A stretch of DNA of 27,973 nt from a virus: the IMG/VR virus record IMGVR_UViG_3300010885_026001, positions 1 to 27,973 of that record; one strand, given 5' to 3'. Positions 207 through 20,539 of the stretch are shown here, piece by piece. The notes beneath the pieces were generated by a model. That model searched no databases and had not been told where the DNA came from. It worked only from the letters and a program-made list of their open reading frames with translations. A program made the position numbers and the translations under genes. Position 1 is the stretch's first letter. Every line of letters starts with the position of its first letter.

Positions 207-1682
207 ATGTCAGACCGGAGAGCAGGTAATAAGTTACCAAATTGGGCATCAAGAGAAAGTACACCGGGTGTACGAGTTGACTCTGGTCCCCATCAAGGTA
301 TTGTAAAAAATAATTCTGATCCAGCAAGACTTGGTAGACTACAAGTGTGGATTCCTGATCTTGGCGGCGAAGAAACCGAACCCAGTAACTGGTTTACTAT
401 TGCTTATGCGAGCCCTTATTTTGGATCAACGTCGGGATTACCAGGAGTCCAAGATCAAACTAGGTTTGGCAACGAACAGCAAACTTATGGCTTTTGGGCA
501 GTACCACCGGACATAGGCAATTTTGTATTGGTTACTTTTGTAATGGGCGACCCATCTAGAGGTTTTTGGTTTGCATGTATTCCAAACACACCGGTTACAC
601 ACATGGTTCCTGGAATTGCTAGAGCAGTTAATGCCAATAAAACACTGACTGATGATCCGGCAATCAAGGGAAGAGTAGATGTTACTACAGATTTTTTACC
701 CGTAACTGAACTTAACACCAATAACACACAAAGAGACAACGATCCAAATTTTGTAACTGCACCCAAAACCGCGCATATCTTTCAAGCCAACATTGTGCTT
801 GATCAAGGACTTGAAACTGATTACATAAGAGGAACAATAACAAGTAGTAGTCAACGAGAGACCCCCAGTCAGGTATTTGGGATCAGTACACCAGGTCGAG
901 CATATCCAGACACCGCAGTGGACTTTCCTGATATTGATGCATTATTAAATTCTGGGCAATTGCCTATCTTTCTGTTACAGCAGTTTCCTGCTCGTAAGGG
1001 CGGGCATACCTTTGTAATGGATGACGGCGATATCAAAGGCGTTGACAATTTGGTCAGACTGCGTACAGCCGGCGGACACACTATCTTGATGAACGATACC
1101 GAAGATATTTTTTATATAATCAACAAGTCGGGCAATGCATGGGTAGAACTAACAAAGAATGGCAGCATTAATATTTACGGCAACGAAGATCTTAATATTA
1201 GAACAAAGCGCAATTTAAATTTACATGCTGATGCCAATGTTAATATTCATGCTGGAGATACACTAAAGATATTCGCCGAAAACAATATCAAAATACAAAC
1301 ACAAACTTATCAAACAATTGCACTAAAAGATTATCAATTGAATGCAGGAAAAGTGGGCATGATCAGCGACACCGAATTAGCATTGAAATCCACTACTGGT
1401 GGTTGGAAAACGTCAGCTGACCTAGTATTAAAAGGCAGAAAAATATATTTAAATTCAGTTGAGCCAAAGGTGCCAACAGTGATTCCACATTTTGAGTTTT
1501 ACCAACAGATAACAACCGAATACGATAACACAAAGAAAAAATGGAAAATGGCAAAAGATAGATTTGAAAGTATCTGCCCATTTACTCCTACACATGAGCC
1601 TTGGAGCCGAATAACTGGTGAATTAAAGTTAATTAGTGGCAAGGTTGTATCAGCAACCACTCAAACCCCGAGTATTAAATGA
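207..1682 (+). CDS. gp5: gp5-like baseplate hub spike/needle, without lysozyme domain
   Basis: This should be the central membrane-piercing spike of the contractile tail. Residues about 25-135 look like the gp5/VgrG OB fold (GRLQVWIPDLGG, then FWAVPPDIGNFVLVTF). Residues about 135-260 form a linker with TSSSQRETPS and FGISTPGRA. From about 262 to 417 there is a beta-helix of short alternating strands (GHTILMND, then repeats such as LNIRTKRNLNLHA, VNIHAGDTLKI, NNIKIQTQ), typical of the trimeric gp5/VgrG needle. The C-terminal part carries FTPTHEPW, a motif I associate with phage spike proteins. T4 gp5 (575 residues) has a lysozyme domain between OB fold and helix. This 491-residue protein has none there; a lysozyme-like domain follows as the next gene. 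Start ATG 207 has a good ribosome site, AAAGGA, just upstream. Its stop overlaps the next start as ATGA. Confidence 0.85.
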   Translation: MSDRRAGNKLPNWASRESTPGVRVDSGPHQGIVKNNSDPARLGRLQVWIPDLGGEETEPSNWFTIAYASPYFGSTSGLPGVQDQTRFGNEQQTYGFWAVPPDIGNFVLVTFVMGDPSRGFWFACIPNTPVTHMVPGIARAVNANKTLTDDPAIKGRVDVTTDFLPVTELNTNNTQRDNDPNFVTAPKTAHIFQANIVLDQGLETDYIRGTITSSSQRETPSQVFGISTPGRAYPDTAVDFPDIDALLNSGQLPIFLLQQFPARKGGHTFVMDDGDIKGVDNLVRLRTAGGHTILMNDTEDIFYIINKSGNAWVELTKNGSINIYGNEDLNIRTKRNLNLHADANVNIHAGDTLKIFAENNIKIQTQTYQTIALKDYQLNAGKVGMISDTELALKSTTGGWKTSADLVLKGRKIYLNSVEPKVPTVIPHFEFYQQITTEYDNTKKKWKMAKDRFESICPFTPTHEPWSRITGELKLISGKVVSATTQTPSIK

Positions 1683-2369: not shown

Positions 2370-2747
2370 ATGGCAAATAAATATCACGGTTTTAGTACTG
2401 TTAATCAAGTTAAAAAATTTAAATTGACTGATTTAGACTTGGTCAAACGCGATCTATTGAATCATTTTGCTATACGTAAAGGCGAAAAGCTAATGCAACC
2501 AAATTTTGGATCAATAATTTGGAACATGCTGTACGAGCCAATGACACCAGAAGTACAAGCTATAATTACTGCCGACATCAAAAGAATCGTTGATTACGAT
2601 CCAAGACTAAATGTCGACGGAGTATTAATAAACGAGTTAGATTATGGTCTACAAATACAAATTGATCTAACTTATCTGCCGGGAAACTACTCAGATCGGT
2701 TAACCCTACAGTTTGATAGTCAAAATCGAACACTTACACGGTCATAA
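2370..2747 (+). CDS. gp25: Baseplate wedge protein gp25 (GPW/gp25 family)
   Basis: A 125-residue protein, close to T4 gp25 (132). gp25 binds gp6 and the sheath-proximal part of the baseplate and helps start sheath assembly. The sequence has the family order. An N-terminal DLDLVKRDLLNHFAIRKGEK is followed by MQPNFGSIIWNMLYEP, the 'p.fGs.l..lLFEP' core, then the helix PEVQAIITADIKRIV and YDPRLNVDGV with beta strands to the end. Start ATG 2370 has AGGG four bases upstream. It sits between the lysozyme-like gene and gp6, as expected for wedge partners. Nothing is missing or truncated. Confidence 0.9.
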   Translation: MANKYHGFSTVNQVKKFKLTDLDLVKRDLLNHFAIRKGEKLMQPNFGSIIWNMLYEPMTPEVQAIITADIKRIVDYDPRLNVDGVLINELDYGLQIQIDLTYLPGNYSDRLTLQFDSQNRTLTRS

Positions 2748-2794: not shown

Positions 2795-5700
2795 ATGGCA
2801 ATTACTACTAGACAAACCAGTTTATTGGTCCAACAAGATTGGACTAAAGTATATCAAACCTTCCGCGAAGCCGACTTTCAAAGTTTTGATTACGAAACTT
2901 TACGTAAGTCAATGATTGAATATTTACGTAGCTATTATCCCGAGGACTTCAATGACTTCACTGAAAGCTCCGAGTACATTGCGTTAATTGATTTGATAGC
3001 CTTCTTGGGACAAAGCCTAGCATTTAGATCAGATTTAAATGCCAGAGAGAATTTTATTGACACAGCTGAACGTCGAGATAGTATTTTAAAACTAGCAAGA
3101 TTGCTAAGTTATAGCCCCAAGCGCAATGTTCCGGCAACTGGTTTTTTAAAAATTGATAGTGTAAGCACTACAGAAAACGTGTTTGATAGTACTGGAAATA
3201 GTTTAAACAATTTAATCATCTCGTGGAACGATACCACAAATGACAACTGGCTAGAACAATTTACAGCAATATTAAACGCAGCCTTGGTAAGCACACAGGC
3301 TATAGGAAAACCCGGAGCCAGTCAAAAGCTTAATGGCATAAAAACAGATGAATATGCCATTGATATTTTAAATAATCTTGTTCCTGTTTATAACTTTAAA
3401 GCCAGTATAGCTGGATCAACCTTCCCATTTGAGGTAGTAAGTTCTACTAGCTCGGGACAGAGTTACATTTATGAATCGGACCCCGCGCCAAATGGACGAT
3501 TTAATATTCTATACAGGAACGATAATCAGGGCAACGACTCAAATAACACTGGATATTTTTTATACTTTAAACAGGGAGATTTAAAAACTTTAGATTTTAC
3601 CATCAATGATACCTTGCCTAATAGAGTAGTAAGTATAAATTTTGATAATATTAACAATTCAGATGTCTGGTTGTACGCACTAAATTCAAGTGGATCGCCG
3701 TCGGAACTTTGGAAGCAGGTTCCAGCAGTGAATGGCATTAACGTAATTTATAACAATACAACAGATAGAAATCTCTATAGTGTGAGTACAAGAGCCAATG
3801 ATCAAATTGATTTAGTTTTTGGTGATGGTAGTTTTACTAATATTCCAATTGGCCAATTTAGATTATATTATAGACAATCAAACAATTTGTCTTACAAGAT
3901 TACTCCTGATGAAATAGCCAACGTTCCGATCACAATTGCATATAGAGGAAGAACCGGACGTGCTGAAACACTAACTGTTCGTACAAGTTTAAAATATACG
4001 ATTGCCAATGCTAGCGCACGTGAGACCTTAGAATCTATTAGAACAAAAGCACCTCAACAGTATTATACGCAAAATCGTATGATCACTGGCGAGGATTATA
4101 ATATTCTTCCTTACACATCATTCAATGACATTATTAAAGCCAAAGCAGTTAACAGATCAAGCTCGGGTATAAGTCGTTATCTAGACGTCATTGATGCTAC
4201 TGGAAAATATTCAAGTACAAATATTTTTGCTCAAGACGGTATAATCTATAAAGAAAATTATACAGATACGGTAAACTTCCAATTCACTAGTAGTACTGAA
4301 GTTAATTATGTTATTCAAAATTTAATTAAACCGTTAATATCATCAATTACAACCAGACATTTGTATTACGCCACGGCCACACGATTTAATATAGAAGGCA
4401 GTGTTATACCGGTAACTTCTATAGTTACTGGATTAGCATATAAAATTGTAACTAAAGGCGTAACTGATTTTACAGCACTTGGTTCAGAAAGCAATGACAT
4501 TGATGCAGAATTTGTAGCGACCGCAGATGGTACCGGAAATACCGGTGGTGGCACTGTTAAGCGTCTAGGGGTATGGAATTTACAAACCAGCGACAATGGC
4601 AAATCCACCGGAACATTTAGTAGCCCAAATTATACATATCTATTGCAAGGATCACTGATAAGATTCGTTGCACCAACAGGAAAATATTTTGACGCTCAAA
4701 ATAGACTACAAGTTGGTACAGTAAGTACTGAATACCAAAAGACGGATTTTTGGACCAGCGTGGTAAGTTATAACAATCCGGGATCAAACTCAACGGCTAC
4801 GTTGAGTGTTTATGTACCAACAGGGGCAATTATTGATGTAGTAATTCCGGTATTCCCAATTGATTGGGCAACGTCATTGACGGATACTATTAAAAATAAT
4901 ATTTTAAGTTACAAAACCTTTGGTTTACGATATGATCTAACAACTCAACTTTGGGTATTGATTGATGAGGCTAATTTATCATCAGGGGAGTTTAGTCTAG
5001 CGTATGCCGGCAGCACTGCAAATACTGGATTAGATGCAAGTTGGTTTTTAAAATTTACGTACAGTAATCAATCATACACCGTTGTTAATAGAGGATTAAA
5101 TTATCTATTTCAAAGCGTCAGAGAAACAAGATTTTACTTTGATCCTGATATTAAAGTGTATGATAGTAAAACAGCTACTACCAAAAAAGATGGAATTAAA
5201 GTATTAAGATCAAATACCCAACCAGATTCTGCAGATGCATTATATTATTCTAAGACATTTAGAATTTGGAACAGAGTTGTCGGAGTTGATGGGTACGAAG
5301 ATAATAGAAAAATACTAGTTACATTTCCTGATGAAAATTTAGATACAGTGCCAGATGATCCTGATTTATTTGAGGACGTTGTTGCTTCTAATATTAACAG
5401 TCAGAATAAGTTTGTATTTTTTCAAAAAGTAATTGATCAATATCAATTTTCTCGATTTGATCCGCTTGACCAGAGTTCTGTGGTATCGGCTTATGCAGAC
5501 TCTGATGCCATATTAATCTATCTGAATCTTTATACGACGGGAACTTTATTTTATGCGACCAACGATGATGCCTTTTATATTTCTGCCGGTACAAGTATAA
5601 CACCAACATCAGACTATCAGGCCAAGACAGGTCGTCAATCAATTTTGTTTCAGTACGCACACAATGCTCCTAACAATCGTAGAATAGATCCGAGTCCAAA

Positions 5701-6253
5701 TAATATCATTGACTTGTATCTGTTGACAAAAACGTACAGTAACGATTATTTTGCTTATATTCAGGATACCAGTAACAAACTGCTAGAGCCAGCTGCACCT
5801 TCCAATGAAGAATTAAAAATACAATTTGGAAGTATTGAAAATTATAAATCTATCAGTGACAGTATCATTTACAATACTGCAAAGTTTAAACCTTTGTTTG
5901 GCGCCAAAGCAGAGTCTGTTTTGCGTGCAACCTTTAAGGTAGTTAAAAATTCTTCTGTTAATATTACTGATAATGATGTAAAGAGTAAAGTAGTCGCAGC
6001 ACTAAATGATTATTTTGATATCAATAATTGGGATTTTGGCGAAAGTTTTTATTTCAGTGAATTAAGTGCTTATCTACATAATGCTTTAGTACCATATGTG
6101 AGCAGTATTATCATTGTTCCTACAACTTCTTCGTCAAGTTTTGGAACCTTATTCCAGATTAATGCAGAGCCAAATGAAATTATTGTCAGTGCGGCTACTG
6201 TTGATAATATTCAAATTATAAGTGCAATTACCGCTGGACAGATTAATCAATAA
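2795..6253 (+). CDS. gp6: Baseplate wedge protein gp6, enlarged
   Basis: gp6 forms the continuous ring that joins the six wedges of T4-like baseplates. The 1152-residue product carries recognisable gp6 features. The N-terminal block has DFNDFTESSEYIALIDLIAFLGQSL and RSDLNARENFIDTAERRDSILKLARLLSYSPKR. A middle segment has YRGRTGRAETLTVR, TKAPQQYYTQNRMITGEDYN and DIIKAKAVNRSSSG. The C-terminus has GESFYFSEL, LHNALVPYVSSIIIVP and GTLFQINAEPNEI. T4 gp6 is 660 residues, so this protein is much longer. One added piece, residues about 545-590 (YKIVTKGVTDFTALG, EFVATADGTGNTGGG), resembles a module in the next gene's product. Start ATG 2795 has AGGT six bases upstream and a late-type promoter box before it. 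Identity is secure; the role of the extra length is unknown. Confidence 0.88.
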   Translation: MAITTRQTSLLVQQDWTKVYQTFREADFQSFDYETLRKSMIEYLRSYYPEDFNDFTESSEYIALIDLIAFLGQSLAFRSDLNARENFIDTAERRDSILKLARLLSYSPKRNVPATGFLKIDSVSTTENVFDSTGNSLNNLIISWNDTTNDNWLEQFTAILNAALVSTQAIGKPGASQKLNGIKTDEYAIDILNNLVPVYNFKASIAGSTFPFEVVSSTSSGQSYIYESDPAPNGRFNILYRNDNQGNDSNNTGYFLYFKQGDLKTLDFTINDTLPNRVVSINFDNINNSDVWLYALNSSGSPSELWKQVPAVNGINVIYNNTTDRNLYSVSTRANDQIDLVFGDGSFTNIPIGQFRLYYRQSNNLSYKITPDEIANVPITIAYRGRTGRAETLTVRTSLKYTIANASARETLESIRTKAPQQYYTQNRMITGEDYNILPYTSFNDIIKAKAVNRSSSGISRYLDVIDATGKYSSTNIFAQDGIIYKENYTDTVNFQFTSSTEVNYVIQNLIKPLISSITTRHLYYATATRFNIEGSVIPVTSIVTGLAYKIVTKGVTDFTALGSESNDIDAEFVATADGTGNTGGGTVKRLGVWNLQTSDNGKSTGTFSSPNYTYLLQGSLIRFVAPTGKYFDAQNRLQVGTVSTEYQKTDFWTSVVSYNNPGSNSTATLSVYVPTGAIIDVVIPVFPIDWATSLTDTIKNNILSYKTFGLRYDLTTQLWVLIDEANLSSGEFSLAYAGSTANTGLDASWFLKFTYSNQSYTVVNRGLNYLFQSVRETRFYFDPDIKVYDSKTATTKKDGIKVLRSNTQPDSADALYYSKTFRIWNRVVGVDGYEDNRKILVTFPDENLDTVPDDPDLFEDVVASNINSQNKFVFFQKVIDQYQFSRFDPLDQSSVVSAYADSDAILIYLNLYTTGTLFYATNDDAFYISAGTSITPTSDYQAKTGRQSILFQYAHNAPNNRRIDPSPNNIIDLYLLTKTYSNDYFAYIQDTSNKLLEPAAPSNEELKIQFGSIENYKSISDSIIYNTAKFKPLFGAKAESVLRATFKVVKNSSVNITDNDVKSKVVAALNDYFDINNWDFGESFYFSELSAYLHNALVPYVSSIIIVPTTSSSSFGTLFQINAEPNEIIVSAATVDNIQIISAITAGQINQ
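4427..4566 (+). repeat. 'TYKI-TDF' module copy 1, inside gp6
   Basis: This segment encodes a compact Gly/Thr-rich unit of about 45 residues: GLAYKIVTKGVTDFTALG, then EFVATADGTGNTGGGTV. A second copy lies at 13598-13740 in the giant protein (GKTYKIKDSGTTDFVAIG, VFVATGTGVAGTTGTAY). The shared order is YKI, a short gap, G-x-TDF-x-A-[LI]-G-S, then FVAT and a Gly-rich end. The DNA of the two copies is clearly diverged, so this is not a recent duplication. The function is unknown; it looks like a portable small beta domain. Confidence 0.6.
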
Positions 6254-12200: not shown

Positions 12201-15200
12201 CATTTAATGATTTGTATAAAATTAGCGGAGACTGGGATCCTCGTGTATTCAGAACTCAATCAACGGCAATTACGGAATCTATTACTCCGTTGCCAATTGC
12301 TGGCTATGTTTATCAACCTGATATAGATTCAACCTTGTTTGATTTAAGTAACTATCAAAGTCTCAATCGACAAATTGACGAAATTGGAACCGGATGGAAA
12401 TTATGGGTAGCAAGAAATTTTAAAAAAGAATGGGATGTATTACGGGCAAATATAGTTCACGGAATTACCTTTGCAATTCGTTATAACATCAATTCTGACG
12501 CAGAATTTGTACACAACGAACCGCACAGTTTAGTAGTTGACGATATTGTAGTAATAAAAAGTTTTGATAGCAGATTTGATGGCGCATATAAAGTTAAAAC
12601 TATTATTGACTCTACTAGGTTTACTGCAGAACTTTATCAAAATTTGATGAGCCTCATTGAACTAGGAGCAGTAGTTGGTCAAGGTATTTTATACAAATTA
12701 TCATCAGTACGAGTTTCACATGCCACAGATATAGAATCCATTAAACCCAATCAAGGGTGGATCACTAACGATAAAATTTGGGTAGATAATTTAGATAATT
12801 ATTCAAATTGGGGAGTTTATAAGAAAACTGACCCTTGGAAATACAGCAATAAATTTACATTGAATCAAAGTCAGGCAGCTGGATTTGATCATTTTGGAGC
12901 CAAGATAAGTCTTAAGTCTGATGGACAAGTATTCTATTCAGCAGCACCTGATTCAGGGCAGGGAAGAATTTCAGTTTTTCAACTAAGCAGATTAAACGAT
13001 ACTTATACGTATACTCCAGTTGCTTCAATCATTGGTAAAAATTCTAATTTAGAGTATCTTGGCGGATCATTATCTAACGGAAATAATTTACTAGCTGCAG
13101 GAGCATATAAAAGTTATTCCAATCAAGGCTTTGTTTATATCTATAAAGATCAAATTTTACAGCAGATTCTAGTAGAATCTTCTGGAACATCCGACAATAA
13201 ATTTGGATACTCCTCGGCAATGTCCGACGATGGAAAATTTTTATACATTGGAGCGCCAGGTAGTAATAAAGTTTATTGTTATGGGTTAGCATCACAAAGA
13301 ACGGAATTAGTAAATGTGTACTATGGCGACGGTAGTACTACTACGTTTACTTTACCTGCTGCCACCCTAGATGCAACATCAGTTATTGTTTATAATCCTT
13401 TATCATCAACCGAGTATATACCCGTAATAGATTATACAATTGCACAGTTTACAACAGGAATATCAAAGTATAGTGTTTCAGGAACTCCGCCAAGCACCCA
13501 AAATTCGTATTATAATGTAAATGCCACCGGAGGAGCCGGAACAGGGGCAAAATTTAGTGTGGCAGTAACAGTGCAAGGACCCGGAGCTTTTACTAAATTT
13601 GTTGTTGGTAAAACTTATAAAATTAAAGATTCAGGAACAACAGACTTTGTTGCCATTGGCTCAGTTGACAACAATCCTGGCACCGTATTTGTAGCAACAG
13701 GTACAGGTGTTGCAGGCACAACCGGTACAGCATATACTTGTGATGTGTCCTTATCTAATGCCGGTACTGGGTACGTAGCCAATAATGTACTAACGATCTC
13801 TGGTGCTAGTATTGGTGGTACTTCTCCTGCCAATGACGTAACAATAACAGTTACTTCTGTGACCAATGGCACAAATATTGTGTTCACTGCAATACCTGCG
13901 GCAAGTCAGAAATATCAGATATTCCTAAAACCTTATTATTACACATTAATGGCAACTTTGCCCAACGGTGCAGAAGCCCCAAGTACCTCTAATTTTGGAT
14001 ATAGTGTGTCGTGTAATTCGGATGGATCAACTGTAGCAGTAGGTGCTCCAGGGGAAACAATCAACGTTGGTAATTCAAGTTATTCAAATTCGGGAGCTGT
14101 TTACGTATATCACAGAACAGTCACTGACTTTGTAACCAGTGGGCTTGGTACATATACTCCGCCTGATGCATTTAATGTGATCAGAAATGTTAAATTAAAC
14201 GGTAAAGATCTAGTAGAAGTAACATCAACTAATATAACCGGTGACTACTATATCTCCGGATCTTCGGTGCAATTTGGTGCATACTCTACTCCTATAAGGG
14301 CACAAAAGTTAACAATAGAAACAAATCAATTTGTTTTTGATCAAAAATTAGCAGGGTTATCGGGCACCAATTTTAGATTTGGAAGTGATACTGACTTTTG
14401 TTCAAGCGGTTGCAATATTATAGTTGCATCACCCGGATATATATATGGCGGGTATCAAGCTGGAGCAGTGACTAGAATTGTAAATGCAGGTAGGATTTAT
14501 GGTTCAATCACTGGCACAAAATCCAATCCTACAGTCACCGCGGGGCATAGTATTGTTATCAACAATGTAAACATTGTGTTTAGCTCTAGCACACTTGATT
14601 CTGTAGTCACAGTGATCAATCAGACATTCATTCCTGGAGTGACTGCAGAAAACATTAACAATAAATTAAAGATTACAAGTCGAGTAGTAGTTCCTGGGCA
14701 AAAATTAGATATTAAACAAGGAGTTGGGACTCCTTTCACTGATCTAGGCATCAATTTATATCAATCAACACAAAATATAACACATCCGGGCCCAGTGACA
14801 GGTGAAACATTTGGAATAGCAGTTGCATTAAATGCAGATTCCACTGTACTTGCCATTGGTAGTCAAGGTGGAGATTCAACAATACCAACCAGCATTGACA
14901 ACGGAAACACAACATTTGATAAATTAAGTACAGAGATTGTAGAGTTAAGAAGAAATTCTGGATCGGTATACATTTATGATTTATTAAACAATCCTTTTGA
15001 AAACATTGAGTATCCTTCAATTTTTACACTGTCGCAAAATCTATACGGAACAGAATTACAATCTGGGTATAATTTTGGACAATCAGTTAAATTAAACAAT
15101 ACCGCTTTGTTTGCTGGAGTAACAAACGACAATGAGTTCAGTCAAGAAAACGGAAGTGTGTATTATTATAGCAATAGCACTGCCACCCCAGGATGGGATT

Positions 15201-18200
15201 TAATTAGATATAAAGAAGCCAGAATTGAGCTAGATGCAGTTAATTCAATCTTTACTTACGACTCGGAATCATCATTGATGATGGATTTCTTTGATTTTAT
15301 TGATCCAGCTAAGGGAAAACTATTAGGGATAGTCGATCAAGAAATTGATTATAGAGAAACTCATGATCCTGCTTCTTATAATTCTGCTAGTAGAAATGAT
15401 ACAATAAAAAATACAAATTTTTATTGGACTGATAGGCAAGTTGGAAGAACATGGTGGGACTTATCCTTGACAAGTTTTATTGACTACGAACAAGGAAGCC
15501 TGGCATATAGAACTAAAAACTGGGGGGCGATATTCCCAGGGAGTCAAATTAAAATTTACGAGTGGGTCAAAAGCTCGTATTTGCCTAGCCAATATGTTGC
15601 CACTGGCAACAATGGAGTACCAAAGCATCCCGACGATTCGGCATATTCAATAGCATCAACAGTTGATCCGGTTACTGGTATTATTGTTCAATATTATTAT
15701 TATTGGGTCGGGAACAAATCTACAGTTGATTCTGTAATAGCGCATCGCAATTTAAGTATTAAATCCTTGGAGTCTTATATATCAAATCCCAAGGATCAAG
15801 GAATTCCTTATATTGCGTTAATCGCACCAAATAGTTTTGCCATTTATAATTCTAATAATAACCTAAGATCGAATAAAATTATACTACACCTTGATCTAGG
15901 ACTAGGCAAAGGGCAAGGTGTAATTCATAGTGAATACGAGTTAATACAACAAGACAATGAGTTACAGATATTTCCACAAAAAATAATTGACAAACTCAGA
16001 GACAGTCTTGTGGGAGTTAACGGTCAAGGGGCACAGGTTCCTGACTTTTTATTACCCGTGCAGGACCGTTATGGCGTATTGTTTAATCCTAGACAATCAA
16101 TGTTTGTTGATCGACAGGCAGCATTAAAAATATTTGTTCAAACTGCAAATAATATTCTTTACCAATACCCTGTATTTCTTATCACCAATCCAAGCACTTT
16201 ATATGCTGAAGAGTCATTGCCAACATCAGGATTTGATTCCCAAGTTGACTCTGCTACACAATTATCTTATTTAGATGCGAATCTGCTCGCAGATGGGTAT
16301 AAGATTTTAATTCCCAGAGACCCAGATTTCAATGATAGATGGACGATCTACGAATACAAGAGCGCAACTGCATCTTTCCAAATTTTAAAAATACAAAATT
16401 ATAAAACTCCGTTATATTGGTCAAAGTTGGATTGGTATGCCAGTGATTTTGAACAAGGTAGCAAGATTGATTTTATAGTACCAACCTATGGCGATATCCA
16501 AACTTTAACATTGTCGGCCGGGAACCTAATTAAAGTGTTAGACAATGGTAATGGACAATGGTTAATTTATTTGGTACAGACTGATTTAAGTTTAACTTTA
16601 AAAGCGGCACAAAATGCAACATTCTCAATTGATACTTCAATCTACGATGTTACACTTGGCTCAGGGCTAGATTCAACATTGTTTGATATAGATCAATTTG
16701 ATACGCAAGTTGTGCAAGAATTAAGTTATATATTTAATAGCCTATATACAGAAATTTTTATCAAAGATTTGGCCATTAAGTTTAACGAATTATTTTTTGC
16801 AATAATAAATTTTATATTCACTGAGCAAAAAGCCACTGACTGGATTTTTAAAACTAGTTTCATTGATGCATATCATAATTTACGTAAGTTAGAACAAATA
16901 CCTAACTATGTTAAAGATGATCAGACTTTTTATGAAAATTATATCAATGAAATCAAACCGTATAGAACAAAACTTAAAGATTATGTTCCTATATACAGCG
17001 GCATAGATGCAGGTATTATAAGTTGGACCGATTTTGATTTACCTAGTCGTTATAACAACAACACCGGTACTTTTAGTGCACCTGGTGATCCAACAGTCCT
17101 GTCATCTACTAGTCCTTATACTGAATGGTATGATCATTATCCCTATCAGGTTTCTGATTTTATAATTGGAAACGTAGGCGTTGGATACGCTATAGCTCCA
17201 AATGTTGAAATAACCGGCGGAGGTGGATCGGGTGCAACTGCTATCACTACAATTGATCCAAGTACTCAGACTCTGACTGGAATTGTAGTTACTAATTCTG
17301 GTAGTGGATATACATCTACCCCTACTGTTACAATAAATGGAGTGGGATCGGGCGCCGTTGTTTATCCCTTGTTAAAAAATCAATACTTTAACCCAGAGCC
17401 GGCATTAAGTTATAATTTAGTTAGAACAACTGATACTACGCTCAAATTTGATAGGATTTTATATGACTCGAATGTGCAAATATGGCAACCTGGTGTAGCA
17501 TACCCGGAAACAGTTATTGCTACTGGGTATGGATCCAGTAGTAACATATGGATACAAAGCGGTAACATTATTTCATACCAAAACGAACCGTTCAAGGCCA
17601 AAGCCACTGCAATATCAAATGGTTCGGTATTTGATTATACATTATTTGACAGGATTGATAATTCCAATGTTCTGCTAACAGCAACAGATAGGATAAAAGT
17701 TTTCTATCAACCTAGTGCAGGCATGCCCAATAATAGTTATTCTGAATTAATAACTGGAATTGATTACCCAGGGGCAAAAGTCACAGCGGCAAAATTTACT
17801 GCCAACAGTGTTGAAATATCAAGCAATATTATAAATTTTAATTACATTGGGTTAACTATTACCAGTGCAAATATAGAAATTGTTGATTTTAGAAAATTAG
17901 GATTTGAGATAGATAATTCTATTAGAGTCCAAGGAAATTACAATTTTGACTTTAAGAATAGCGGATATTTTAAAATAATCAATGTTGAAAATCACTACAT
18001 GACGTTGGCCGGGGAACCAATAGAAACAACTTACAGAATGTTATTAGATATCCCAATTACTGCAAACTCTGGAGATATTATAACACAGGCCAATGTTTCT
18101 GGAAATGCTTATGTATTAAAAGACTTGGTTAATTCTAGATTTGTTGATATTATACATACCACAACCGGATTCCAACAAACAACTGCAGTTGGTACATTAG

Positions 18201-20539
18201 CTGAAACATATCCAATTGTGACAGTTGGTGATCCTGAGAATATTTACATTAATGGGGTAACATCTCTTGCCACAGTAGAAGAAATTACCACCGGTGGTAA
18301 TGCCAATGTTACAATTAGCTATTTAGAATTGGATACATCAATTTTAGATTCTAATATATATAGTCAATATACAGACACAGCATTGGGTACTAGACCCGAA
18401 GATATCAATATTGCAGGCGGTGCCTATGTTGATACATATAGCAGTCATGCACCAGAAGAGTTGATACCTGGTAGAATGTATGATGCATTGGAGATAAGAG
18501 TATTTTCAAATAATACATCCAATACCGCTGCATACGGATTTAGAATTTTTAATCCAATGAGTAGAGATCCAGAATTTACACGAATAAGCTTAGACAATAC
18601 TACTACCCTTTTAAAAGATTTAAACGTAACTGATAGTTTTATTTTTGTCAATGATGTTACTAAATTACCTGCTCCGGCTCCTGACAGCGGTACTCCTGGC
18701 GTAGTTTATATCAATGGCGAACGGATACATTATTATCAATTTTATTCCACACTAGATATCGCATATGCGATTCCGTGGCAAGCAGGTATATTGTATCCTG
18801 AACAGTCTATTATATCAGTTGATCTAGGAACATTATATTCTAATGTTAAATCTAATGTTGGAGGAGTAACATTTGACATTAGAGCGTACTCAACAGGATA
18901 TACAGCGTCTTTAAATACTAGCAATATTCAATTGAGCGTAGGCAACGTATTTGCAATCACCGGCGATCAACTTGGTGGAGTTTCGTCGACAAACAATGCA
19001 AAAATTAAAATAGATACTGACGGGTTACGTATTTTTTATACTGCAACTGGTGTTCCTGCAGCAGCAGACAGTATAACCTATCAAGTGTTGGGTAACATAT
19101 ACGCTAACGCAAATTCTTATATAAACTCAGCAAATATTCAGATGGTGTATCCTAACACAATATCGCAGCTAAGACGAAGTGTTGACGGGACAGGAGCACC
19201 TGCAACACATGCCGCAGGAAGTCTTGTAGTTGACAGCAGCTCGCAACAAATCATCCCGGACTCGGGAATTAGATCGGCAAATGTGTACACTGTTGGAAAC
19301 TTAATAGCAACCAGCAATGTAACATATAAAATGACATTGACTAATCCTATTACTGCAAATATAGGCGATTATATATCACAATTTAGTAATGCTAATGTTC
19401 GTGTACTGGAAAGTGTTGTTAATTCTAATGTTGTAGCAGTTAGCCTTGAAAGTATAGATTTTACATCATATGCCTGGCGGGCAAATACACTATCCGTTGC
19501 AAATAATCTTAGTATTAGTGCTCAGGACACAACTATGACCGACGTGTTCTTCAAGTCAGACGGTACAAAGATGTATTCAATAGGATCTAGTGGTGACAAG
19601 GTATATGAATACACGCTGGGAACAGCATGGAATGTCGCTACGGCAAGTAACGTAGCGGCCAAAAGTGTAAGCACACAAGAAACTGGCGGGGGCGGGCTAT
19701 TCTTTAAGCCTGATGGTACCAAAATGTACATAATAGGAAGCAGTCAAGACAGAGTGTTTGAATATACATTGAGCACACCATGGAGAGTTAATACAGCCAG
19801 CAATGTAGGTACTTCAGTGCAAACAAGTTCAGGTGGTACTAGCGAATCTAGTCCACAGGCGTTATTCTTCAGGCCCGACGGTTCAAGTTATTACATAGTT
19901 GGAACAGCTTCAGACAGAGTCATGCGTTATGACATGACAACACCATGGCAAGTGAACACCGCTGCTTATTACTCACAAAGTTCTAGCATCACCTCAATTG
20001 AGACATCACCAACCGGATTGCACTTTCACCCAGATGGAAAAAAGATGTTCGTTGTAGGTAACACTAACGATCGCATAAGAGAATACGATCTAGCTACAGC
20101 ATGGGATCCTAGTACTATAACACTAGTAGCTAGTTCGCCAATTTTATCTGGTGCTAGTCCAAGTCCTCAAGGTATGTTCTGGAAACCAGATGGCACCCGC
20201 GTGTTTGTAGTAGATAGTATCTCAGATCAAATTACTGCATACAACGTTGCTACCAGCACCTACATTTATGTGACATCATCAATCCCTGTAGTTGCAAATG
20301 CTGCTATGCTTAGAGTAAATGTTGTTTCTACAACCAGTACGATACGTACCACTGCAAATATATTGGCATTTGATGTATTAGGTACAATAAATCCAAATGG
20401 TAATGTTGTTACCAAAACAATCACTGGAAACATCCTAACTAGCAATCTATGGATCCCAGTAAGATCTGGCGTAGGATTAGAAAATAGCACATTAGACGGG
20501 GCAGTATTTATTAGACAGGAGCCTAGTTATAAGCCATGA
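6266..20539 (+). CDS. Giant modular baseplate/virion protein in the gp7 position
   Basis: One frame of 4757 residues, opened by ATG 6266 with AGGA six bases upstream. It sits between gp6 and a gp8-position gene, where T4 has gp7 (1032 residues), so a gp7-like wedge role is inferred. Direct gp7 homology is not evident to me. Visible parts: N-terminal block with INFNQYYWLKDGP (about 128-141); a cupredoxin-like segment LTLARGGTYDFVVN...YPFYIQG (about 169-253); INQHPLFDIVDDSG (about 695); HPWEMLGFSEQPDYWNDR and YGPAPYTAGNAILW (about 1285-1320); FG-GAP propeller (2200-2968); GVLFNPRQSMFVDRQAALKI (about 3270); INEIKPYRTKLKDYVP (about 3558); two Gly-rich 'G-x-GY-x-P-V-I' units (3635-3705); LGTRPEDINIAGGAYVDTYS (about 4040); QLRRSVDGTGAP (about 4300); five-repeat propeller (4412-4667). 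These blocks recall very large structural proteins of marine T4-like phages. No catalytic motif or membrane segment was seen. Confidence 0.75.
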   Translation: MAAVKSIQFLPEVFRTDTNRKFLNATVDQLISEPQLTKIDGYIGRKLAPSYKITDNYISEPGSDRQHYQLEPSLVIKNPVTDKIEFSTTYPDLINQVKYHGGLVNNHDRLFDSEYYSYDPKVNLDKLINFNQYYWLKDGPNAVTISALGFPLNYTFNVVYDSASKTYLFTGQDNIPNPMLTLARGGTYDFVVNEPGYPFYIQGKPGSSGYDTLNPNINTREILGVLNNGTDFGVVRFVVPLETAQDQWNSMYQAGTADYATLLSFKDVQGVTPEELNSLLGGLDGITYSLDNKKIIFVNNEKIDDEFWNESPAVVADGVVYFDYYDSATFDSSLYEYVEYVPIGKRNDIYLIQIIKDSSGTDRIVLSPYTSVDDNQKIKVKAGGTFSGKEFYSALGLLTPVPYISANLSNLYYQNGATNEAAGFIKIINPTAETIDPDQEIIGKISYTSPQGVIFTNGLKVVFDSTATVAYQNKTYYVEGVGTAIRLILVDNLTADELNGDLSVPDYLTINRASIDQNAWSRTNRWFHSEVIQKTADYLKTTANFDQTLRAKRPIIEFDADLQLYNFGTLAKKPIQILDNIITSAYTQVQGVICPVVAGIPTSHTFTVGAQSVTLTNGDRVVFSTDENNNVRDKIFVFSIVKDAISPAEYKAYIEEAEDYEVSPGHVLIVQHGSNGSKQWYYNGSTWVSAQQKISINQHPLFDIVDDSGVSLAGTATYPGSSFSGTKIFSYKVGTGTADPILGFPLSYKNFQAQGDIEFVNDYDADTFNYIISGGASSSLGTNSGLLQKNLDRTTSIRQNIWTIVNDFTKQFQIYDFVYDGTTCLFPVDDLPNPSVNSPNIKVYLNNNPLTSKDFAVTRVVDRYAVVVNQDILTANDAIFILLYNSTKSLPNAYYEIPTNLDINGQNKNLNVLTLGQMRNHLVTIKNKSFSIIGNVPGNSNLRDLTYTNIGGSILQHSAPVLYSSLFLTHPTMNFVNALKLANQEYSKFKIKFLELAANLDLDRTDIPNCVDTIIGKINNLKNNSFPWYYSDMIPYAAMGFNKISYTILSSTIRSYEMSSIFQDAVLQNRAVFVYLTRTVKNKTTTLLLIKNKDFYFEQTRPAITFNESFTLLYQDKIDIVEYADTNGSYIPETPTKLGIYPRFIPEIFVDNTYREPVTVIQGHDGSITPSFGDYRDDILLELERRIYNNLKVEYNPNNFNLYDYLPGKFRNTGYTNAEFNQILSSAFFPWIGNNKVDYTTNSTFKSSDPFTWNYKNFRDVVNGETLPGTWRSIYKYFYDTDRPHTHPWEMLGFSEQPDYWNDRYGPAPYTAGNAILWSDLSQGYIHSGNRAGFDIRYRRPNLNKYIPVDESGALVSPEKILVVDFDSANANTSYSIGDHGPAETAWRRSSEYPFSLHLALALTKPAKYFSLLSNITNYYRDNVTAQFLINSTKQHLTPDAVLINGYENAGVVENSAGYINWIVDYVKNLGISDASSMVKDNLSKLSIQLAYKIGSYTDKKFITLLAEQSSPTSINDSIVVPDENYRIELYKSTPVSKVQYSAVIVEKSAAGYTVSGYSTTTPYFFIIPSVPNNNSYVITQGNSRAVIYNDYKKTKLTIPYGFEFNTKQQVVDFLVGYQRYLIAQGFVFTDTESALEEKQDWVLSAKEFLHWVEQGWRTGSVLVLTPVKTTLKFYNNLAVVDEIKNIPFGSRILDINNKVIKNNNFTVFRENNLFTIQSNGEQSIGFAELNVVQYEHLLIIDNQTVFNDIIYAPELGNRQYRLKLLGSKTSNWNGSLELPGFIYNSPNFDTWSPGADYLKGSIIEHKSKYYTALQNIIASDKFQSSSWKLILNSELKYGITNNFATNAGQSLQFYDIDNQPFNETLQSFSNGLIGFRNIQFFSDLGIDTTTQSKFYQGLIKQKGTLNSIVALKGAIFNNINTDINIYENWAIRVGEYGALDDNQYIELALDERKVTNNPSTIQFNDSTTIVDSDVVSYTFNDLYKISGDWDPRVFRTQSTAITESITPLPIAGYVYQPDIDSTLFDLSNYQSLNRQIDEIGTGWKLWVARNFKKEWDVLRANIVHGITFAIRYNINSDAEFVHNEPHSLVVDDIVVIKSFDSRFDGAYKVKTIIDSTRFTAELYQNLMSLIELGAVVGQGILYKLSSVRVSHATDIESIKPNQGWITNDKIWVDNLDNYSNWGVYKKTDPWKYSNKFTLNQSQAAGFDHFGAKISLKSDGQVFYSAAPDSGQGRISVFQLSRLNDTYTYTPVASIIGKNSNLEYLGGSLSNGNNLLAAGAYKSYSNQGFVYIYKDQILQQILVESSGTSDNKFGYSSAMSDDGKFLYIGAPGSNKVYCYGLASQRTELVNVYYGDGSTTTFTLPAATLDATSVIVYNPLSSTEYIPVIDYTIAQFTTGISKYSVSGTPPSTQNSYYNVNATGGAGTGAKFSVAVTVQGPGAFTKFVVGKTYKIKDSGTTDFVAIGSVDNNPGTVFVATGTGVAGTTGTAYTCDVSLSNAGTGYVANNVLTISGASIGGTSPANDVTITVTSVTNGTNIVFTAIPAASQKYQIFLKPYYYTLMATLPNGAEAPSTSNFGYSVSCNSDGSTVAVGAPGETINVGNSSYSNSGAVYVYHRTVTDFVTSGLGTYTPPDAFNVIRNVKLNGKDLVEVTSTNITGDYYISGSSVQFGAYSTPIRAQKLTIETNQFVFDQKLAGLSGTNFRFGSDTDFCSSGCNIIVASPGYIYGGYQAGAVTRIVNAGRIYGSITGTKSNPTVTAGHSIVINNVNIVFSSSTLDSVVTVINQTFIPGVTAENINNKLKITSRVVVPGQKLDIKQGVGTPFTDLGINLYQSTQNITHPGPVTGETFGIAVALNADSTVLAIGSQGGDSTIPTSIDNGNTTFDKLSTEIVELRRNSGSVYIYDLLNNPFENIEYPSIFTLSQNLYGTELQSGYNFGQSVKLNNTALFAGVTNDNEFSQENGSVYYYSNSTATPGWDLIRYKEARIELDAVNSIFTYDSESSLMMDFFDFIDPAKGKLLGIVDQEIDYRETHDPASYNSASRNDTIKNTNFYWTDRQVGRTWWDLSLTSFIDYEQGSLAYRTKNWGAIFPGSQIKIYEWVKSSYLPSQYVATGNNGVPKHPDDSAYSIASTVDPVTGIIVQYYYYWVGNKSTVDSVIAHRNLSIKSLESYISNPKDQGIPYIALIAPNSFAIYNSNNNLRSNKIILHLDLGLGKGQGVIHSEYELIQQDNELQIFPQKIIDKLRDSLVGVNGQGAQVPDFLLPVQDRYGVLFNPRQSMFVDRQAALKIFVQTANNILYQYPVFLITNPSTLYAEESLPTSGFDSQVDSATQLSYLDANLLADGYKILIPRDPDFNDRWTIYEYKSATASFQILKIQNYKTPLYWSKLDWYASDFEQGSKIDFIVPTYGDIQTLTLSAGNLIKVLDNGNGQWLIYLVQTDLSLTLKAAQNATFSIDTSIYDVTLGSGLDSTLFDIDQFDTQVVQELSYIFNSLYTEIFIKDLAIKFNELFFAIINFIFTEQKATDWIFKTSFIDAYHNLRKLEQIPNYVKDDQTFYENYINEIKPYRTKLKDYVPIYSGIDAGIISWTDFDLPSRYNNNTGTFSAPGDPTVLSSTSPYTEWYDHYPYQVSDFIIGNVGVGYAIAPNVEITGGGGSGATAITTIDPSTQTLTGIVVTNSGSGYTSTPTVTINGVGSGAVVYPLLKNQYFNPEPALSYNLVRTTDTTLKFDRILYDSNVQIWQPGVAYPETVIATGYGSSSNIWIQSGNIISYQNEPFKAKATAISNGSVFDYTLFDRIDNSNVLLTATDRIKVFYQPSAGMPNNSYSELITGIDYPGAKVTAAKFTANSVEISSNIINFNYIGLTITSANIEIVDFRKLGFEIDNSIRVQGNYNFDFKNSGYFKIINVENHYMTLAGEPIETTYRMLLDIPITANSGDIITQANVSGNAYVLKDLVNSRFVDIIHTTTGFQQTTAVGTLAETYPIVTVGDPENIYINGVTSLATVEEITTGGNANVTISYLELDTSILDSNIYSQYTDTALGTRPEDINIAGGAYVDTYSSHAPEELIPGRMYDALEIRVFSNNTSNTAAYGFRIFNPMSRDPEFTRISLDNTTTLLKDLNVTDSFIFVNDVTKLPAPAPDSGTPGVVYINGERIHYYQFYSTLDIAYAIPWQAGILYPEQSIISVDLGTLYSNVKSNVGGVTFDIRAYSTGYTASLNTSNIQLSVGNVFAITGDQLGGVSSTNNAKIKIDTDGLRIFYTATGVPAAADSITYQVLGNIYANANSYINSANIQMVYPNTISQLRRSVDGTGAPATHAAGSLVVDSSSQQIIPDSGIRSANVYTVGNLIATSNVTYKMTLTNPITANIGDYISQFSNANVRVLESVVNSNVVAVSLESIDFTSYAWRANTLSVANNLSISAQDTTMTDVFFKSDGTKMYSIGSSGDKVYEYTLGTAWNVATASNVAAKSVSTQETGGGGLFFKPDGTKMYIIGSSQDRVFEYTLSTPWRVNTASNVGTSVQTSSGGTSESSPQALFFRPDGSSYYIVGTASDRVMRYDMTTPWQVNTAAYYSQSSSITSIETSPTGLHFHPDGKKMFVVGNTNDRIREYDLATAWDPSTITLVASSPILSGASPSPQGMFWKPDGTRVFVVDSISDQITAYNVATSTYIYVTSSIPVVANAAMLRVNVVSTTSTIRTTANILAFDVLGTINPNGNVVTKTITGNILTSNLWIPVRSGVGLENSTLDGAVFIRQEPSYKP
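13303..13970 (+). other. Nested insertion between propeller blades 3 and 4
   Basis: About 220 residues separate blades 3 and 4. The outer layer is a beta domain beginning YYGDGSTTTFTLPAATLDA and EYIPVIDYTIA, and it resumes as IVFTAIPAASQKYQIFLK. Inside it is a second unit that opens GGAGTGAKFSVAVTV and resumes as VSLSNAGTGY, LTISGASIGG and NDVTITVTSV. Inside that, between AVTVQGPG and TAYTCDVS, is the 'TYKI-TDF' module (13598-13740). So three domains are nested within a loop of the propeller. The layers are inferred from where each motif set breaks and resumes. Confidence 0.55.
13598..13740 (+). repeat. 'TYKI-TDF' module copy 2, inside the giant protein
   Basis: It encodes VVGKTYKIKDSGTTDFVAIG, then VFVATGTGVAGTTGTAY, residues about 2445-2492 of the giant protein. 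It pairs with the copy in gp6 at 4427-4566, with the same motif order. It is the innermost layer of the nested insertion. Confidence 0.6.
19505..20265 (+). repeat. Five-repeat beta-propeller near the C-terminus of the giant protein
   Basis: Five repeats of 51-55 residues are obvious. Each has [VLAG]-x-F-[FHW]-[KRH]-[PS]-DG-x-x-[MYV]-[YF] followed by [IV]-[GD]-x-x-x-D-[KRQ]-[VI]-x-x-Y and [LMV]-[GSTA]-T-[AP]-W. First-line examples are FFKSDGTKMY, FFKPDGTKMY, FFRPDGSSYY, FHPDGKKMF and FWKPDGTRVF, with the key Phe at residues 4428, 4479, 4534, 4586 and 4638. The strand order resembles YVTN/NHL/SMP-30-like propellers. Base composition looks richer in G+C than most of the gene: 28 of 60 bases at 19681-19740 and 25 of 60 at 19741-19800 by hand count, against 11 of 60 at 9181-9240. 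That, and regular spacing, suggest a late-acquired module. A ligand-binding role is inferred. Confidence 0.75.

Follow-up and report, generated by a model that had tools for sequence, protein, structure and literature searches.

A small TYKI-TDF module nested within other modules of a giant phage virion protein and inserted in many other virion proteins

The giant virion protein and its nested loop

The window analyzed here is the whole of a 27,973-base virus record from IMG/VR (IMGVR_UViG_3300010885_026001), which represents an uncultivated phage. Its genes are aligned in the order of a gp5-like ORF, a 225-aa ORF, a gp25-like ORF, a gp6-like ORF and an ORF coding for a 4,757-aa virion protein, and this giant ORF is located downstream of the gp5-, gp25- and gp6-like baseplate genes (Table 1). 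The giant protein exhibits propeller matches to FG-GAP_2, SGL and Lactonase of Pfam. The FG-GAP_2 match covers two stretches and scores 36.1 bits against a cut-off of 23, and FG-GAP propeller membership is thus met. Near the C-terminus, repeats at window positions 19700–20260 (aa 4480–4665) match SMP-30 and Lactonase propellers above cut-off and represent a second propeller besides the FG-GAP one. GGGGSGA...GSGY repeats at 17186–17368 of the same ORF match PHROG 460 'head closure Hc2', probably through the repeat rather than through whole-protein homology.

Table 1. Coordinates of the features in the window and of the loci compared for the self-nested unit
Feature	Position	Strand	Basis or remark
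gp5-like ORF	207-1682		
gp25-like ORF	2370-2747		authors' reading of the sequence
gp6-like baseplate wedge ORF	2795-6253		PHROG 10646
Second TYKI copy, inside the gp6-like ORF	4406..4549	+	profile 1e-15; empty counterpart in L018, flanks 51% and 62% identical
Giant virion structural protein, 4757 aa	6266..20539	+	PHROG 10938 'virion structural protein', E=0
FG-GAP-like propeller repeat directly before the loop (FGYSSAMSDDGKFLYIGAPGSNKVYCYG)	13202..13288	+	sequence; aligns with FG-GAP-like repeats of relatives
Outer module, first half (YGDGSTTTFTL...DYTI)	13319..13441	+	outer model bits; unsplit in L014-L018
Middle module, first half and linker (...YYNVNATGGAGTGAKFSVAV)	13442..13570	+	middle model positions 1 to ~20; excision border aa 2393
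TYKI-TDF module, innermost layer	13571..13729	+	excision optimum; profile match 4e-16; AlphaFold2 fold; information borders
Middle module, second half (YTCDVSLSNAGTGY...DVTITVTSV)	13730..13864	+	middle model positions 21-65; excision border aa 2533
Outer module, second half (NGTNIVFTAIPAASQKYQIFLKPYYYTLMATLP)	13865..13963	+	model and excision scan; empty version in L016
FG-GAP repeat after the loop	13988..14110	+	Pfam FG-GAP_2, aa 2575-2615
Middle-type module, unsplit, elsewhere in the giant protein	18836..19018	+	middle model E=4.7e-07, model positions 15-65
TYKI-in-TYKI, gene after the distal-tail gene	L101:4244-5188 vs L207:12286-13074		

A loop flanked by FG-GAP repeats carries three nested layers at aa 2346–2568 of the giant protein. 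The loop contains an outer module whose C-terminal part is interrupted by a middle module, and a hairpin of the latter is in turn interrupted by the TYKI-TDF module (hereafter TYKI). The two halves of every layer match their counterparts in unsplit modules of relatives. Models of the middle and outer modules were built from relatives only, leaving the window out. The best fragment scored 46.0 bits with the middle model, and after removal of the TYKI layer the match extended over the full model with 70.9 bits; the outer model rose from 28.2 to 51.5 bits once both inner layers were removed. We also scored all cuts of 25–74 aa with the middle model and of 100–169 aa with the outer model (9,525 and 7,385 cuts, respectively). 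The middle model was best served by excising 51 aa at aa 2434–2484 (94.3 bits against a median of 57), with near-equal shifts up to aa 2438–2490, and the outer model by excising 141 aa at aa 2393–2533 (63.5 bits against a median of 32). These optima are not a chance pattern, and the borders emerge from the scan, not from the parsing of the first-pass annotation. The length of TYKI is about 51 aa by excision and 47 aa by conservation. Phmmer matches of the outer module to designed armadillo proteins were rejected, as no single stretch passes and they are apparently repeat artefacts.

AlphaFold2, run with 78 sequences on the TYKI unit alone (a 54-aa model), predicted three strands and a short helix with a pLDDT of 86 and a pTM of 0.70. 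When the 231-aa region was modeled, confidence was confined to the TYKI block (block means 77–95), and no confident continuous fold was predicted across the region from this shallow alignment. Because the alignment is shallow outside TYKI, the 231-aa model is no test of the outer and middle layers, and with model confidence low there, neither the folds of these layers nor the closeness of the module ends is structurally established. Foldseek found the TYKI fold in uncultured-phage proteins, eleven of them at probability 1.00 with a TM to the query of 0.70–0.90. It gave no PDB fold match to the unit at E≤0.001, and no PDB chain carries the unit.

Variants of the loop in relatives

A direct search of viral contigs with the full 378-aa region returned no matches, and neither did blastn and tblastn of isolate phages. 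Homologues of the giant protein were therefore retrieved with a conserved upstream part as the query; L-numbers designate the fetched loci. The outer module occurs alone and unsplit in the loop of L014–L018, as a pair in L042, and split by two middle modules without TYKI in L020. L033, L057 and L080 have two outer modules with a middle module between them. TYKI occupies the last hairpin of an outer module in L058, likewise in L055, L076 and others, and the loop carries TYKI without an outer module in L280, L102, L135, L153, L264 and L288. The full three-layer nest is that of the window, and none of the relatives found has a wholly empty loop. Among 71 aligned segments, some stretches of which are misplaced, the outer and middle positions are filled in most, whereas the TYKI position of the window is filled in only two, the window included. 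The outer and middle layers at this loop are therefore an old feature common to many relatives, and TYKI at this position is a local addition. We regard the loop between the propeller repeats as a probable insertion hotspot in a large virion protein.

The first-pass annotation, which was made without database searches, had read these layers as a domain split by a second domain, itself split by a TYKI-TDF module, between propeller blades 3 and 4. The strings it quoted are present in the giant ORF where it placed them, and the nesting held in the models and the excision scan. The loop does lie between propeller blades in that FG-GAP repeats stand on either side, the blade numbers being that annotation's own count. 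The two checks that it had named both came out in its favor: relatives without one or more of the layers exist, and TYKI is predicted to fold as its own unit, the longer model being of low confidence elsewhere.

Hosts, borders and presence/absence of the TYKI unit

TYKI is not peculiar to the loop. The window holds a second copy, and the fetched loci hold at least 356 copies, of which 202 are distinct at 95%, spread over 256 ORFs; the same search of reversed sequences gave zero matches. One phage record carries 19 copies and another carries 15. With the module masked, the hosts fell into 65 clusters, an upper figure because some clusters are truncated ORFs or fragments of one another, and they represent about 60 host families. 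PHROG labels were sought for 39 hosts: 20 were head, tail or connector proteins, one was a lysis protein (amidase), two were unknown and 16 had no match. The labeled virion hosts include baseplate wedge, tail sheath, distal tail, adaptor, fiber and internal virion proteins, and no replication protein was present among the 39 hosts scanned. One 1,273-aa tail sheath protein (L234:3471-7289) carries TYKI and a middle-type module, both ahead of the sheath match. TYKI-like segments also occur in small 'MGRPLK...' proteins (259–287 aa) of jumbo-phage relatives (L301, L303 and L304); these small proteins resemble abundant cyanophage virion proteins.

In isolate phages TYKI was rare. Partial matches at E≤0.01 occurred in 2 of 50,697 isolate-phage records, in a BLAST search that masks low-complexity sequence; tblastn placed a partial copy in cyanophage S-TIM54. 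A protein scan of bacterial genomes gave at least 597 candidates and no relative, and a DNA pattern search of 84,980 prokaryote genomes was therefore added. It hit 31 places, and 14 loci, mostly MAG contigs, carry TYKI by profile. In three of these loci (L310, L316 and L331), which are prokaryote-labeled contigs, TYKI lies within FG-GAP-like proteins, again in a propeller-like context; two of the three are titled Planctomycetia and Singulisphaera.

The borders of the unit are sharp. Across 234 full copies, information rises from about 0.1–0.3 bits outside to 2–4 bits at conserved positions inside, and the change occurs within a few residues at both ends of a unit of ~47 aa (A-G-S-F...G-T-G-T-A). 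At third codon positions the unit largely shares the usage of the host gene, with few deviating columns, and its GC3 correlates with that of the host gene (0.85). Since silent positions largely follow host codon use, the conservation acts on the protein, and conservation at this level despite free silent positions argues that the fold is under selection. No curated family in Pfam, PHROGs or NCBIfam matched TYKI above cut-off. The closest Pfam family was YjbE, with a best E of 9e-4 among 25 members and 16.5 bits against a cut-off of 27.9 for the first member, and 78 members gave no PHROG match at 0.01. The best NCBIfam match (glucokinase, 0.0025) was disregarded. The motif was not found in the literature searched.

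Strict empty counterparts, in which gaps are small and either flank is at least 30% identical, were found for 133 TYKI copies in 16 host families, including both copies of the window. TYKI thus meets the test of a promiscuous virion module, as it occurs in unrelated virion proteins and is present or absent at homologous sites. In the giant family, at least nine TYKI sites were mapped, at window aa about 597–610, 648, 2345, 2407, 2440, 2643, 2890–2901, 2957 and 3322, and several further copies near the C end remained unmapped. L131 and L221 have reciprocal filled and empty sites.

The clearest case is a distal-tail gene, which carries TYKI in L207, L268 and L271 and lacks it in L140. The DNA of L140 and L207 is 96–98% identical on both sides of the site. 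L101, which is 90–94% identical, also lacks TYKI there; in its next gene, a TYKI unit is split by a second TYKI, and L207 and L140 have the unsplit version. The inner unit of L101 is 88% identical over 154 bases to the distal-tail insert of L207. A tree of 37 distal-tail proteins, made with the TYKI module removed, needs three presence/absence changes (bootstrap 5–95% range 3–3), and its well-supported branches force at least two. The filled pair L207 and L353 is nested within supported clades of empty relatives, and a gain is the simpler reading there. TYKI was thus likely gained more than once at this site, as the tree supports, although loss is not excluded for every change. In another observation, a 'GTGITAGT..IT...GTGTYTVSxSQTV' repeat lies inside a TYKI unit in the giant ORF of L060 (near aa 4406–4500), and TYKI lies inside such a repeat in ORF 496-2865 of L229, so that two promiscuous units are nested reciprocally.

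Copies within one genome were also compared. In five of six pairs, the units were 57–77% identical and the flanks beyond the first 12–24 bases were 15–36% identical; the sixth pair (L117 3887/4067) was excluded, being out of register in the ungapped comparison. The palindrome test detected no hairpin in 80 copies (mean fold z of −0.34, 9% below −2), and no clear target duplication was visible when the L207 distal-tail site, the one site with near-identical flanks, was read by eye.

Proposed explanation, rivals and known systems

Our results show that TYKI is a small unit that occurs in about 60 phage protein families, is present or absent in frame and nests in other modules and in itself; that it has a fold of its own is predicted by the model. 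An account that combines a hotspot loop with a promiscuous TYKI unit is, as a whole, the likely one. We infer that units would be copied by recombination into exposed loops, whether from phage to phage or from gene to gene within one phage, and that such insertion may be tolerated because the unit folds alone with its ends close together. What retains the units may be an adhesive or shielding surface that they give to the particle, an inference without binding or display data. Such a role has been proposed for phage Ig-like domains. That nearly all labeled hosts are virion proteins suggests a particle-surface role; weak adhesion or shielding in particular rests on analogy without binding data, and we hold it only tentatively, with the balance slightly against it. 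The repeated insertion at exposed loops proposed in the first-pass annotation is thus supported with the qualification that TYKI alone is local to its position in the window, and its view of a new baseplate surface is not shown, being inferred from gene order and host proteins. A further refinement is that TYKI is promiscuous across many phage virion proteins.

Could TYKI instead be selfish DNA that spreads in frame through coding sequence, like a Rickettsia palindromic element, with no benefit to the virion? The sharp DNA borders between copies of one genome, the recent presence/absence difference together with a close copy in the neighboring gene of a relative, and the up to 19 copies per phage record speak for this view. 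We consider it unlikely, however, because the copies form no hairpin, the L207 site shows no evident target duplication, conservation is at the protein level with silent positions largely following host codon use, and DNA selfishness alone does not predict hosts that are nearly all virion proteins where labeled. A bolder reading, in which TYKI moves between virion genes as a discrete DNA cassette, driven by dedicated machinery or by a phage recombinase, remains possible: it is favored by the sharp borders and disfavored by the lack of a hairpin and of a clear target duplication. If true, TYKI would be a protein domain that behaves like a transposon and actively remodels the surface of phage particles.

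Two further rivals fare worse. One holds that the modules descend from a common ancestor and that many lineages then lost them, without repeated gains. The wide presence of outer and middle modules at the loop in relatives speaks for it, and these two layers probably do have an old origin followed by losses. As a general explanation it is very unlikely, given the at least nine mapped sites of TYKI in the giant family and its presence in dozens of unrelated protein families, the reciprocal sites of L131 and L221, and the filled L207 and L353 within supported clades of empty relatives. The region could also be one continuous domain whose three motifs are accidental in a Gly/Thr/Ser-rich sequence; G, T, S and V are indeed abundant in it, and it has recurring short motifs. 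The excision optimum, the absence of reversed-sequence matches, the precise empty counterparts and the predicted independent folding of TYKI all but exclude this reading.

TYKI is a new family whose behavior is of a known kind, since mosaic virion proteins and promiscuous Ig-like domains are known. Two of its features we did not find described: that it nests in itself and in other modules, and that its presence differs between phages so recently that the change can be studied. Evidence for domain gain in phage virions usually comes from mosaics that are old and diverged. Here, a widespread unit with sharp borders, one layer of a three-layer nest, is present or absent in phages that share about 97% DNA identity, which makes the rate and mechanism of in-frame insertion measurable. 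As TYKI is absent from the family libraries searched yet reaches 19 copies per record, many 'hypothetical' virion proteins may be better parsed once it is recognized and masked.

Ongoing fragment shuffling, over-represented in receptor-binding, baseplate and endolysin proteins, was described by Smug et al. 2023 (PMC10684548). That survey covered RefSeq phages and ECOD domains, whereas TYKI is rare in isolates and in no library searched. Rickettsia palindromic elements and PARCEL repeats (PMC2996958) are both short pieces of coding sequence that are inserted, in frame, into numerous unrelated genes. TYKI shares in-frame insertion of a short unit across unrelated genes with both but has no palindrome, and its labeled hosts are almost only virion proteins. 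FG-GAP (integrin-type) propeller repeats resemble the scaffold around the loop, as the FG-GAP_2 match above cut-off indicates, whereas the inserted modules themselves are not FG-GAP repeats. Ig-like domains of phages, found in Hoc, tail and baseplate proteins, are small beta units that are exchanged between phages and have a presumed surface role. TYKI resembles them as a small beta unit on many different virion proteins. It is not Ig-like, however, because the three strands and short helix of its model are too few for an Ig sandwich; it matches no Ig-like family and no PDB fold at E≤0.001, is about half as long, and inserts internally and inside itself.
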